A DNA stretch of 40,010 nucleotides, from assembly GCA_003249215.1 (NCBI GenBank), contig QKJR01000002.1, positions 1 to 40,010 on the forward strand, in the 5' to 3' direction. Below the pieces are notes generated by a model. It ran no database searches. It was not told the origin of the DNA and saw only the letters and a program-made list of their open reading frames with translations. This DNA comes from Rhodobacterales bacterium (GTDB lineage Bacteria > Pseudomonadota > Alphaproteobacteria > Rhodobacterales > Rhodobacteraceae). Positions 30,443 through 33,641 of this stretch are shown piece by piece (position 1 is the first letter of the stretch; every line of letters begins with the position of its first letter). Both the position numbers and the translations under genes were made by a program.

Positions 30443-31075
30443 TTAGCGACGGCGATCCCGGCGGGCGCTCATCGGCTGGAAGGCGACGCCGACATGGGCC
30501 TCGCAATAGGGTTTGCCGGGCTGGCTCGGCAGGCCGCAGAAATAGAAATTGTCGGTCGCCGGGTCGCCGATCGGCCATTTGCAGGTCCGTTCGGTCAGTT
30601 CCATCAGGCTGATCTTGCGGGCGCGTTTCTCGACCTCGCCGACCTTGGCAAGCGCCTCGGGGCTGATCTCGTTGGCCGAGGGCTGCGGCGGCAGCGGCTG
30701 ACCCGCGGGCACGATCGGCTTGCGCATCGAGGGCACCGAGGCGACGGGCATCTCGGCGCGGGGCGTGGCGGCGGCCGCGGGTTGCGGCGCGGGGCGCGCG
30801 GGCGCGGGTTTCGGTGCCGCAGGGGCCTCGGTCACGGCCTCGGTCGGCGCGGCACTCGCCGCGACGGGTTCGGGCGCGGGCTTGGGCGCCGCGGCGGCGG
30901 GCGCGGCCGGGGCGGGCGCCGGATCACCGGCGCGGTTCGACAGGCCGAGGCGATGCACCTTGCCGATCACCGCATTGCGGGTGACCCCGCCGAGTTCCTT
31001 GGCGATCTGGCTCGCGGACTGGCCTTCGGTCCACATCTTCTTCAGCAGCTCGACCCGTTCGTCGGTCCAGGACAT
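30443..31075 (-). CDS. gcrA: GcrA cell-cycle regulator
   Basis: Sigma-70-associated activator that, in alphaproteobacteria, links transcription to CcrM (GANTC) adenine methylation through the cell cycle. 210 residues: the N-terminal DNA-binding domain is MSWTDERVELLKKMWTEGQ followed by SASQIAKELGGVTRNAVIGKVHRLGLSNR. A long Ala/Pro-rich disordered linker (about 50-110) follows, then the C-terminal sigma-binding domain (SLMELTERTCKWPIGDPATDNFYFCGLPSQPGKPYCEAH with its cysteines). The ATG at 31075 is preferred over a GTG two codons upstream because family members start MSWT. A good promoter lies 65-93 bases upstream. The linker is longer than in Caulobacter GcrA. Confidence 0.95.
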   Translation of the reverse strand: MSWTDERVELLKKMWTEGQSASQIAKELGGVTRNAVIGKVHRLGLSNRAGDPAPAPAAPAAAAPKPAPEPVAASAAPTEAVTEAPAAPKPAPARPAPQPAAAATPRAEMPVASVPSMRKPIVPAGQPLPPQPSANEISPEALAKVGEVEKRARKISLMELTERTCKWPIGDPATDNFYFCGLPSQPGKPYCEAHVGVAFQPMSARRDRRR

Positions 31076-31139
31076 CGGCACCCTTCCATTCCGCCCGGGC
31101 AGGTCCGGGCCTTGCGCCCCATTCTAATGGGGACGGGCT

Positions 31140-31235: not shown

Positions 31236-31264
31236 TTGACAGCCTGGCGCGGGCGGATTAACCA
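31236..31264 (+). promoter_or_regulatory. Promoter of the arginine leader and argD-argF
   Basis: Consensus TTGACA (31236-31241), a 17-base spacer and TAACCA (31259-31264). Six bases separate the -10 from the ATG of the leader peptide, so transcription should start at or within a base or two of that A. Confidence 0.6.
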
Positions 31265-31270
31265 GCGCTC

Positions 31271-31327
31271 ATGATCAAACGGACCGCCCTCATCGCCCGT
31301 CCCCGACGCCGCCGCACCCGCGCCTGA
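31271..31327 (+). CDS. Putative arginine-rich leader peptide (arg attenuator), leaderless
   Basis: An 18-codon reading frame encoding MIKRTALIARPRRRRTRA, then TGA. Seven of 18 codons are arginine (CGG, CGT, CGA and four CGC), six of them in the last nine and four consecutive. It lies between a near-consensus promoter and argD-argF, the position and composition of a ribosome-mediated attenuator sensing charged tRNA-Arg. There is no Shine-Dalgarno, and the predicted transcription start falls on the ATG, like the leaderless trpL of Sinorhizobium. I did not find a textbook T-tract terminator downstream, so the output mechanism is open. Too short to be certain without expression evidence. Confidence 0.6.
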   Translation: MIKRTALIARPRRRRTRA

Positions 31328-31340
31328 CGTCCGATCACCC

Positions 31341-31427
31341 GTGGCCTCCGGTCACATCCCCTGCAAATCCTGCCTCAATCGCATCCGATCCGGTCCAAAC
31401 CCGTTGACAGTGGTCCGGCCCCGATGC
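31341..31427 (+). other. Structured region between arginine leader and argD
   Basis: Two potential stem-loops lie downstream of the leader stop. The first is GTGGCC-TCC-GGTCAC (31341-31355, 6 bp with one G-U). The second, longer and imperfect, has GCATC (31381-31385) paired with GATGC (31423-31427) and CCGG (31390-31393) with CCGG (31415-31418). Neither has a following T-run. The rest of the gap to argD at 31460 holds only the ribosome site GGAG. Confidence 0.4.
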
Positions 31428-31459
31428 ACCCCTTGGCCTTCCATTGCTGGAGCTTGCTC

Positions 31460-32641
31460 ATGATTTCTTCGGTCCTGCCCACCTACAACCGCGCGCCGCT
31501 GGCTTTCGTCCGGGGCGCGGGCTCCTGGCTCGAGACGGCGGATGGCGCGCGCTATCTCGATCTCGGCGCGGGGATCGCGGTCAATGCGCTGGGCCATGCC
31601 GCGCCGGAACTCGTCGAGACCCTGACCGAGCAGGCGGGCAAGCTCTGGCATGTGTCGAACCTCTACCAGATCCCGGAACAGCAGGCGCTGGCCGACATGC
31701 TGGTCGAGAAGACCTTCGCCGATACCGTCTTCTTCACCAATTCGGGCACCGAGGCGGCCGAGCTCGCCTTCAAGATGGCGCGCAAGTATCACTACGCCAA
31801 GGGCCACCCGGAGCGGGTCGAATTCATCGCCTTCGAGGGCGCCTTCCATGGCCGCTCGACCGCCGCCATCGCCGCCGCGGGCAGCGAGAAGATGGTCAAG
31901 GGCTTCGGCCCGCTGATGCCGGGCTTCCATCAGGTGCCCTTCGGTGATCTGGATGCCGTCAAGGCGCTCGTCTCCGACAAGACCGCCGCGATCATCCTCG
32001 AGCCGATTCAGGGCGAAGGCGGCATCCGCCCGGCGCCCGATGCCTTCCTCAAGGCGTTGCGCGATCTCTGCGACGAGACCGGGACGCTCCTGATCTTCGA
32101 CGAGGTGCAATGCGGCATGGGCCGCACCGGGCGGCTCTTTGCCCATGAATGGGCGGGCGTTACCCCCGATATCATGATGGTCGCCAAGGGCATCGGCGGC
32201 GGCTTCCCGCTCGGCGCGGTGCTGGCGACCGAAGAGGCCGCCTCGGGCATGGTCGCGGGCACCCATGGCTCGACCTATGGCGGCAACCCACTGGGCTGCG
32301 CGGTGGGGGGCAAGGTGATGAGCATCGTCTCCGATCCGGCGTTCCTCGAAGCGGTCAACGCCAAGGCGGGCTTCCTGCGCCAGAAACTCGAGGGCCTCGT
32401 CGCCGCGCATCCCGAGGTCTTCGAGGGCGTCCGCGGTCAGGGGCTGATGCTCGGCCTCAAATGCAAGGTCGCGCCCGCCGATGTGGTCGCCGCCGCCTAT
32501 GATCAGCACCTGCTGACCGTGCCGGCCGCCGACAACGTCCTGCGCCTCCTGCCCGCGCTCAACATCTCCGAGGCCGACATGGCCGAGGCCGTCACCCGCC
32601 TCGATGCTGCCGCCACCGCACTGGAACCGAAACAGGCCTGA
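31460..32641 (+). CDS. argD: Acetylornithine aminotransferase
   Basis: PLP enzyme converting N-acetylglutamate semialdehyde to N-acetylornithine in arginine synthesis; family members often also act in lysine synthesis. 393 residues, with [10 protein letters not shown] (66-75), [18 protein letters not shown] (91-108), EPIQGEGGI (181-189), [12 protein letters not shown] (213-224) and the PLP lysine in [15 protein letters not shown] (Lys243). The ATG at 31460 with GGAG upstream gives [14 protein letters not shown], the standard start; an upstream in-frame ATG at 31424 lies in the leader hairpin. argF follows 73 bases later across repeat copy 4, as one biosynthetic unit. Confidence 0.95.
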
Positions 32642-32714: not shown

Positions 32715-33641
32715 ATGACCCATTTCCTCGATATCCACACCACCACCCCCGCCGACCTGCGGCAGATGATCGACACCGGCCGCGCGATGAAGGACGCCCG
32801 CAAGGGGCGCCCGAAAGGCGCGCCCGACGATGACCTTCCGCTCGCCGGTCACATGGTCGCGCTGATCTTCGAGAAACCCTCGACCCGGACCCGCGTCAGC
32901 TTCGATGTCGGCGTGCGCCAGATGGGCGGGCAGACGATGGTGCTTTCGGGCAAGGAAATGCAGCTCGGCCACGGCGAGACCATCGCCGATACGGCGCGGG
33001 TGCTTTCGCGCTATGTCGATCTGATCATGATCCGCACCTTCGAGGAGCAGACGCTCCTCGAGATGGCCGAACACGCCACCGTGCCGGTGATCAACGGGCT
33101 GACGAACCGCACCCACCCCTGCCAGATCATGGCCGATATCATGACCTATGAGGAGCACCGCGGTCCGATCGCGGGCAAGAAGGTGGTCTGGTCGGGCGAT
33201 GGCAACAACGTCTGTGCGAGCTTCCTGCATGCCGCGGGGCAGTTCGGGTTTGACTTCACCTTCACCGGACCGCCGACACTCGACCCCGAACGCGAATGGA
33301 TCGACTTTGCGCGCACGAAGGGCGTCGAGGTCGCGATCGAGCGCGATCCGAACAAGGCGGTCGATGGCGCCGATCTGGTGGTGACCGATACCTGGGTCTC
33401 GATGCACGACCCCGAAAGCGCCAAGGAACGCCGGCACAATCAACTGCGCCCCTATCAGGTCAACGAGGATCTGATGGCGCGCGCCAGGCCCGATGCGCTC
33501 TTCATGCATTGTCTGCCGGCGCACCGGAATGACGAGGCGACCTCGGCCGTGATGGACGGGCCGCATTCGGTGATCTTCGACGAGGCCGAGAACCGCCTGC
33601 ACGCCCAGAAGGCGGTGATGCGCTGGTGTCTGGGCAAGTGA
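32715..33641 (+). CDS. argF: Ornithine carbamoyltransferase
   Basis: Makes citrulline from ornithine and carbamoyl phosphate. 308 residues, the usual length. The carbamoyl-phosphate motif FEKPSTRTR has STRT at 56-59, HPCQ is at 134-137, and the ornithine-binding FMHCLPAHR lies near the C-terminus. DTWVSMHD is also conserved. The ATG at 32715 ([15 protein letters not shown]) is the family start, though the ribosome site (GAAAGACC) is weak. It follows argD and probably shares the upstream leader-controlled promoter. Confidence 0.96.

Follow-up and report, generated by a model that had tools for sequence, protein, structure and literature searches.

An arginine-codon leader reading frame, probably leaderless, as a candidate arginine sensor upstream of argDF in Rhodobacteraceae

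The argDF locus and its upstream reading frame

The window, by which we mean the whole stretch of 40,010 nucleotides from a Rhodobacterales bacterium analysed here, carries on its forward strand two neighbouring genes that we take to be argD and argF, names that come from the initial annotation and from protein similarity. argF lies immediately 3' of argD in 59 of the 60 family genomes that have both genes. Upstream of argD, divergent on the minus strand at 30443-31081, is a gene that, judged from its protein sequence, is presumably gcrA, encoding a cell-cycle regulator; among 30 family genomes, 17 have it within 4.3 kb of argD on the opposite strand. The initial annotation had described, between a TTGACA-N17-TAACCA promoter and argD-argF, an 18-codon frame with seven Arg codons, four of them in a row, and the sequence confirms each of these elements, including the 17-nt spacer. 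From the end of this frame to argD-argF there are 132 nt. The features of the locus are collected in Table 1.

Table 1. Features of the argDF upstream region, in window positions
Feature	Position	Strand	Basis or remark
-35 element TTGACA of the leader promoter	31236..31241	+	sequence
-10 element TAACCA	31259..31264	+	sequence; AUG 6 nt downstream
Leader ORF, putatively leaderless, MIKRTALIARPRRRRTRA*	31271..31327	+	18 codons
Predicted RNA three-way junction	31272..31337	+	minimum-energy and centroid fold, covariation
Helix 1	31272-31276 with 31333-31337	+	AUG-proximal bases with bases past the stop
Helix 2	31281-31287 with 31295-31302	+	small hairpin
Putative sensor codons CGA CGC CGC CGC	31304..31315	+	sequence and comparison
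Helix 3	31305-31315 with 31320-31331	+	Arg codons with stop region
C-rich, G-poor stretch, leader stop to argD	31328..31440	+	candidate Rho-loading region
Hairpin D (GTGGCC-TCC-GGTCAC)	31341..31355	+	directly past the junction; no T tract
Block 2, GTTGAC...GCACC...GGCCTTCC	31403..31442	+	conserved; about 56 nt before argD
argD Shine-Dalgarno GGAG	31449..31452	+	sequence
argD	31460..32641	+	start at 31460; proposed controlled gene
argF	32715..33641	+	next operon gene after argD

Judged from this promoter, the RNA is predicted to start on or beside the leader AUG, and no Shine-Dalgarno sequence is seen by eye before that AUG in the window, in agreement with the earlier description of a predicted start at the AUG and no ribosome-binding site. 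A generic promoter scan of the window made no call at the leader promoter because TAACCA lacks the final T that the scan demands. Comparison with relatives gives the same geometry. A Shine-Dalgarno-like 4-mer lies ahead of 1 of 94 leaders, as against 78 of 97 argD genes. In 67 of the 94 leaders a -35-like 5-mer, from a set of nine that was picked after the sequences had been seen, starts at -35 or -36 from the leader ATG, and 71 of the 94 have a single TA at -12 or -13. When promoter placement is defined as TTGAC with at most one mismatch plus TA, both at fixed distances, 92 of the 194 ATGs called as leader starts show it, compared with 9 of the 837 remaining ATGs of those upstream regions; a few called starts (L191, L233, L232 and L150) are probably wrong by an in-frame ATG. 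This placement suggests that the leader ORF is probably leaderless.

Conservation, reading frame and codon choice

A homologous ORF with RRR or RRRR is present in all 18 genus genomes examined, at -177 to -272 from argD. When these 18 loci are combined with 80 named family loci (98 in all, L035 duplicating L010), 95 carry an ORF of 7-25 codons that starts with ATG and has RR or a longer run close to its end, and RRR is found in 78. An evenly spread sample of 139 family genomes, with roughly one from each genus, yielded 137 argD genes. Of their upstream regions 109 carry an RR leader (shuffle mean 10.9, reverse complement 15), where a shuffle rate of about 8% means that some of the 109 may be chance; 83 carry an RRR-ending ORF (1.2 and 4, respectively) and 71 an RRRR ORF (0.1 and 3). 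Thus, an Arg-codon leader before argD is present in most family genera examined. A subgroup (L083, L101, L103, L109, L184, L202 and others) has very short leaders that end in RRA*, with CGA-CGA as the sole Arg pair. No RR leader was found in 28 of the 137 argD upstreams. Of the 15 genomes with the lowest ArgD scores relative to the query, 14 are among these 28, so the leader seems to have no place in deep branches of the family. Among 27 family genomes without a leader, 8 (L205, L241, L243, L260, L263, L264, L271 and L272) have a terminator-like hairpin ahead of argD, in several of them, by eye, soon after a TTGAC promoter-like site; these hairpins are possibly a different attenuation device.

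Outside the family, an RRR ORF was found in 3 of 72 argD upstreams from the class (L305, L027 and L310), the 72 being made up of 32 and 40 with slightly differing windows. Among the three, only L027 has, by eye, a promoter-like start before the ORF. This locus, from a genome of another alphaproteobacterial family (G029), has MLNLANRNRRRRSPAALARAR promoter-positioned behind TTGACA about 262 nt before argD, which suggests that an arginine leader arose independently in that other family. An RNA model of the leader (R2) matched 5 of 289 class genomes at E <= 0.01, two in the family and three outside, and no Arg leader was present at the three outside sites. This model is insensitive, having missed the leader in two of the four family genomes drawn, so it says little on absence elsewhere, and the RNA models as a whole cover part of the family only.

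The Arg codons are tied to a reading frame. CGACGH occurs in the upstream region of 94 of 97 loci, and upstream ATGs that are open to it fall 94 times in the CGA frame and 10 and 3 times in the other two, where a locus may count repeatedly. A stricter test picked the ATG by promoter placement alone, for which 98 of 225 non-redundant upstreams qualify; the Arg motif (CGA) was in frame in 98 of these 98, at seven spacings (18, 21, 24, 27, 30, 33 and 36 nt). Together with the 18/18 genus genomes and 109/137 family upstreams, this result upholds the conservation of the Arg cluster and its frame on which the initial annotation had let its claim depend. Across 194 leaders the stop lies 0-5 codons past the Arg run, a proximity that is partly by construction, as the search required RR among the final nine codons of an ORF no longer than 25 codons. 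The same annotation had expected third-position variation, and this is not seen: in 19 aligned genus relatives the variable columns of codons 2-15 are divided 10/10/10 by codon position, with no third-position excess, and the synonymous share of changes is no higher in the leader frame than in frame +1. Substitutions are milder in the leader frame (mean BLOSUM 0.70 versus 0.42 and -0.32). The pattern fits a leader in which the Arg codons and the RNA count: these are conserved, the peptide not visibly so.

The choice of Arg codons is also distinctive. Among 678 cluster codons there are 323 CGC, 308 CGA, 43 CGT, 3 CGG and 1 AGG, so that 674 are CGC, CGA or CGT; in 80 argD genes, CGG makes up 25% and CGA 6% of Arg codons, and CGA accounts for none of 161 in five window genes. 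CGA is present in 189 of 194 clusters. CGA CGC CGA CGC is the commonest four-codon run (74 of 113) and CGA CGA the commonest two-codon run (17 of 40). According to a Salmonella study, CGC, CGA and CGT share tRNAs, which we assume to hold here, and CGA-containing Arg pairs strongly relieve attenuation in a his-leader assay, a sign of slow reading (PMC4046918). In orf34-speF of Salmonella, however, rare (CGACGA) and frequent Arg codons respond alike to arginine (PMC6386406). It is plausible that slow reading is the reason for the choice of CGA; an RNA hairpin also constrains these bases.

RNA fold of the leader and the sequence before argD

The leader RNA is predicted to form a three-way junction in which the Arg codons occupy the 5' arm of a covarying hairpin and the stop codon its 3' arm. 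Folding energy lies barely under that of shuffled sequences (mean z -0.46 to -0.90; window z -0.97). An RNA model built from 19 sequences was searched against 93 sources; each of its 40 matches with E below 0.01 falls at the leader AUG, and at least seven of the 40 are training sequences or copies. In a set of 48 sequences, chosen for matching that model, 87.1% of cells pair and 19 of 25 pairs have changed on both sides. For 43 further matches, drawn from 100 of 134 family loci fetched (57 of the 100 without a match), the corresponding values are 79.8% and 21 of 25; this set includes one copy of a training sequence (L179) and one match located away from the leader (L193). In both alignments, none of 500 shuffles reached as high on either measure, with the reservation that both were fitted to the model, which favours it. 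Covariation is clearest in helix 1, whose third pair is seen as UA, AU, CG and GC; GAUC:GAUC, for instance, is replaced by the compensated GAAC:GUUC among relatives. RNAalifold on the 19-sequence alignment returned 18 pairs, one with double changes, because the genus relatives vary too little, and on one 84-segment alignment it returned no structure. A search of Rfam with the window region gave no match at the leader down to E = 5. For hairpin D, all five model pairs have changed on both sides in alignment A4. One family locus, L007 (genome G013), has this hairpin (GTGGCC..GGCCAC) in four tandem copies between leader and argD.

Closer to argD lies block 2, with the pattern GTTGAC, then GGCAC, then GG.CTT in relatives. 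TTGAC is found at -45 to -90 of argD in 89 of 97 loci, and the block is kept at loci without an RR leader, such as L078, L085 and L091. One possibility is a second promoter by which transcription would bypass the leader, another an RNA element. As an RNA hairpin it was convincing in single folds, and column covariation among 170 sequences gave nothing clear in its support. Nor did it look like a member of a common promoter class: a scan of its own genome gave 3 occurrences of the pattern versus 5 for the reversed control, and the copy in the window itself departs from the pattern scanned for.

Proposed mechanism, alternatives and related systems

We consider it likely, from the sequence comparisons, that this region is a leaderless, ribosome-read and cis-acting arginine sensor for the argDF operon. 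The reading frame, promoter placement, codon choice, predicted fold and operon order described above would combine as follows. Transcription would start on the leader AUG and ribosomes would begin at the leaderless 5' end. The ribosome would then enter the Arg run, nearly always with a slow CGA and read by one tRNA type. If that tRNA is charged, the ribosome would reach the stop in the 3' arm of the Arg-codon hairpin; if arginine is short, it would stall on the Arg run and leave the 3' arms of the junction free. We infer that such stalling raises argDF expression. The initial annotation had called the region a leaderless, putative arg attenuator. The leader ORF in that proposal is supported by its conservation, frame and placement, and the word attenuator remains our inference as well, no conserved switch having been found among the predicted folds.

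How the position of the ribosome would be read out is the less certain part. As the most likely output, although with no more than even odds, we propose that, after normal release, Rho loads on the C-rich RNA past the leader stop and terminates before or early in argD, a stall lessening this termination. Control through Rho or through an alternative RNA fold had both been offered initially, and base composition favours Rho. In 188 leaders, the RNA between the leader stop and a point 20 nt short of argD contains 39% C and 24% G. The median C/G ratio, taken over 174 leaders, is 1.00 ahead of the promoter, 1.89 past the leader and 1.56 within block 2. Of 194 leader loci, 159 have a C/G ratio of at least 1.5 at -150 to -20, versus 2 of the 27 family genomes that lack a leader; in 30 genomes compared gene by gene, 25 argD upstreams and 2 gcrA upstreams have such a ratio. 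The Rho RNA-binding domain (PF07497) is present in 11 of 11 other genus genomes searched and was not found in the window's own genome, which is 82% complete. Yet a C-rich stretch alone is no proof of Rho action, and the fold gives no account of why a stalled ribosome would block Rho.

A classical trp-type attenuator, with an intrinsic terminator on the completed leader and an antiterminator on stalling, has in its favour that the Arg codons sit on the 5' side of a hairpin that covaries, that hairpin D follows at once, and that 21 of 194 leaders, against 6 of 194 shuffled (one shuffle per locus), have a terminator-like hairpin. But a terminator scan of the window found none downstream of the leader, in keeping with the earlier remark that there is no clear T-tract terminator, and 173 of the 194 leaders are likewise without one, so an intrinsic terminator was rejected as the general output in spite of the excess over shuffles. 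Nor do the predicted folds behave as such a switch would. Between stalled and released ribosome, modelled for 174 leaders, block 2 pairing does not change on average (16 lower, 16 higher), and hairpin D pairing is not lower on average when stalled but higher (68 up, 7 down), a rise that is partly trivial, since the stalled state leaves more RNA free to pair; no terminator/antiterminator switch appeared among the stalled, released and ribosome-free states. Because the intrinsic terminator was looked for and not found as a general feature, we do not assign the leader to the trp/his type of attenuator, and we think it unlikely that it works as one. Control of argD translation or of mRNA decay through folding, set by ribosome position, ranks next after Rho and has somewhat better prospects, although we still doubt it. 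The structured leader with its covarying helices would suit it, as does the precedent of the RNase G branch in Salmonella orf34-speF (PMC6386406), but the argD start region is predicted to pair to much the same extent in the three states, with means of 8.5 pairs when free, 8.6 when stalled and 7.8 when released.

The other explanations concern what the leader is rather than how it is read out. Strong covariation, and the lack of visible conservation of amino acids outside the Arg run, could point to a structured RNA element, either a riboswitch or a protein site, with an incidental reading frame; against this, the Arg motif keeps its frame in 98 of 98 cases over seven spacings, CGG is nearly absent from the run, and the window region has no Rfam match down to E = 5, which together make such an element very improbable. 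The terminated leader might also act in trans, as an sRNA or a peptide, in the manner of rnTrpL and peTrpL of Sinorhizobium, whose leaderless trpL architecture it probably shares (PMC10117765). We regard a trans role as quite unlikely, a shade less probable than the intrinsic-terminator mechanism, given that the peptide sequence is poorly conserved, that the argD leader is the only strong R2 match in three genus genomes, and that it is the only short RRR ORF among the 30 of 55 own-genome pattern hits inspected; in six other family genomes searched for copies R2 missed even the argD leader and is uninformative there. GC-rich sequence makes Arg codons common, and an Arg-rich ORF could in principle arise in such a spacer by chance; the RRRR count (71 of 137 versus 0.1 in shuffles) and the frame test make this exceedingly improbable, and we take it to be refuted by conservation.

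Returning to the arginine sensor, several known systems resemble it in part. The uORFC-8-2 element before cysS in Rhodobacterales (PMC8632094) belongs to the same order and is a short ORF that begins with AUG and has, within a stem, tandem codons for the cognate amino acid; ribosome-mediated attenuation is proposed for it, as here; it differs in its Cys codons, its gene and a U run read as an intrinsic terminator, whereas here the codons are Arg, the genes argDF and terminators few. argD goes unmentioned in the main text of that paper. Consecutive Arg codons also sense arginine in orf34-speF of Salmonella, where Rho and leader folding are involved; in contrast to our leader, orf34 precedes an ornithine decarboxylase gene, is led by a Shine-Dalgarno sequence, has 34 codons with a conserved DUF2618 core, starts 484 nt before the speF start, and is gammaproteobacterial (PMC6386406). 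rbfL of Staphylococcus aureus is a short ORF whose Arg codons sense arginine shortage, but they are AGA/AGG, the ORF is Shine-Dalgarno-led, and the RBS of rbf, which encodes a biofilm regulator, is blocked by the stalled ribosomes (PMC13009471). The trpL/rnTrpL leader of the alphaproteobacterium Sinorhizobium meliloti is, as is probable for the leader before argD, a leaderless ORF at the RNA 5' end that precedes an amino-acid biosynthesis gene; unlike the leader described here, with Arg codons, a predicted three-way junction and few terminators, it is a dual-function attenuator sRNA (PMC10117765). Among the literature searched, the nearest precedents are thus the Rhodobacterales cysS uORF and Salmonella orf34-speF. 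The leader codons of S. meliloti trpL are reportedly Trp.

The initial annotation knew of no arginine leader of this type in Rhodobacteraceae, and our search agrees: within the literature covered, which did not extend to subscription journals and supplements, no arginine leader of a bacterial arginine biosynthesis operon was recognised. We therefore place the element with ribosome-read leader regulation that would work like an attenuator, the arginine version before argDF being new among the literature searched. In many other bacteria, arg genes are controlled by ArgR, a DNA-binding repressor that serves the same physiological end as the leader proposed here but is a protein and not an RNA leader. 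A search for ArgR (PF01316), the control for which was positive in 9 of 14 known genomes, found it in none of the 139 family genomes; of 190 class genomes, 5 have it. Rhodobacteraceae, which include many marine and phototrophic bacteria, thus seem to be without ArgR. Tentatively, and with somewhat less than even confidence, we speculate that a family-wide attenuator has replaced ArgR, combining a leaderless Arg-run ORF built from slow CGA pairs, a conserved three-way junction, a stop codon within the sensor hairpin and a readout by Rho on the C-rich spacer. If this is true, it would be a variant of ribosome-mediated attenuation that is tuned to a single tRNA type and uses Rho in place of an intrinsic terminator. 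The 194 related leaders form a natural series that varies in CGA use, run length, RNA fold and C-richness, and that is suited to the study of how stalling on a leaderless RNA leads to gene control without an evident intrinsic terminator. For the family itself, the leader offers one specific and testable answer to how arginine synthesis may be controlled without ArgR in most of the genera examined.
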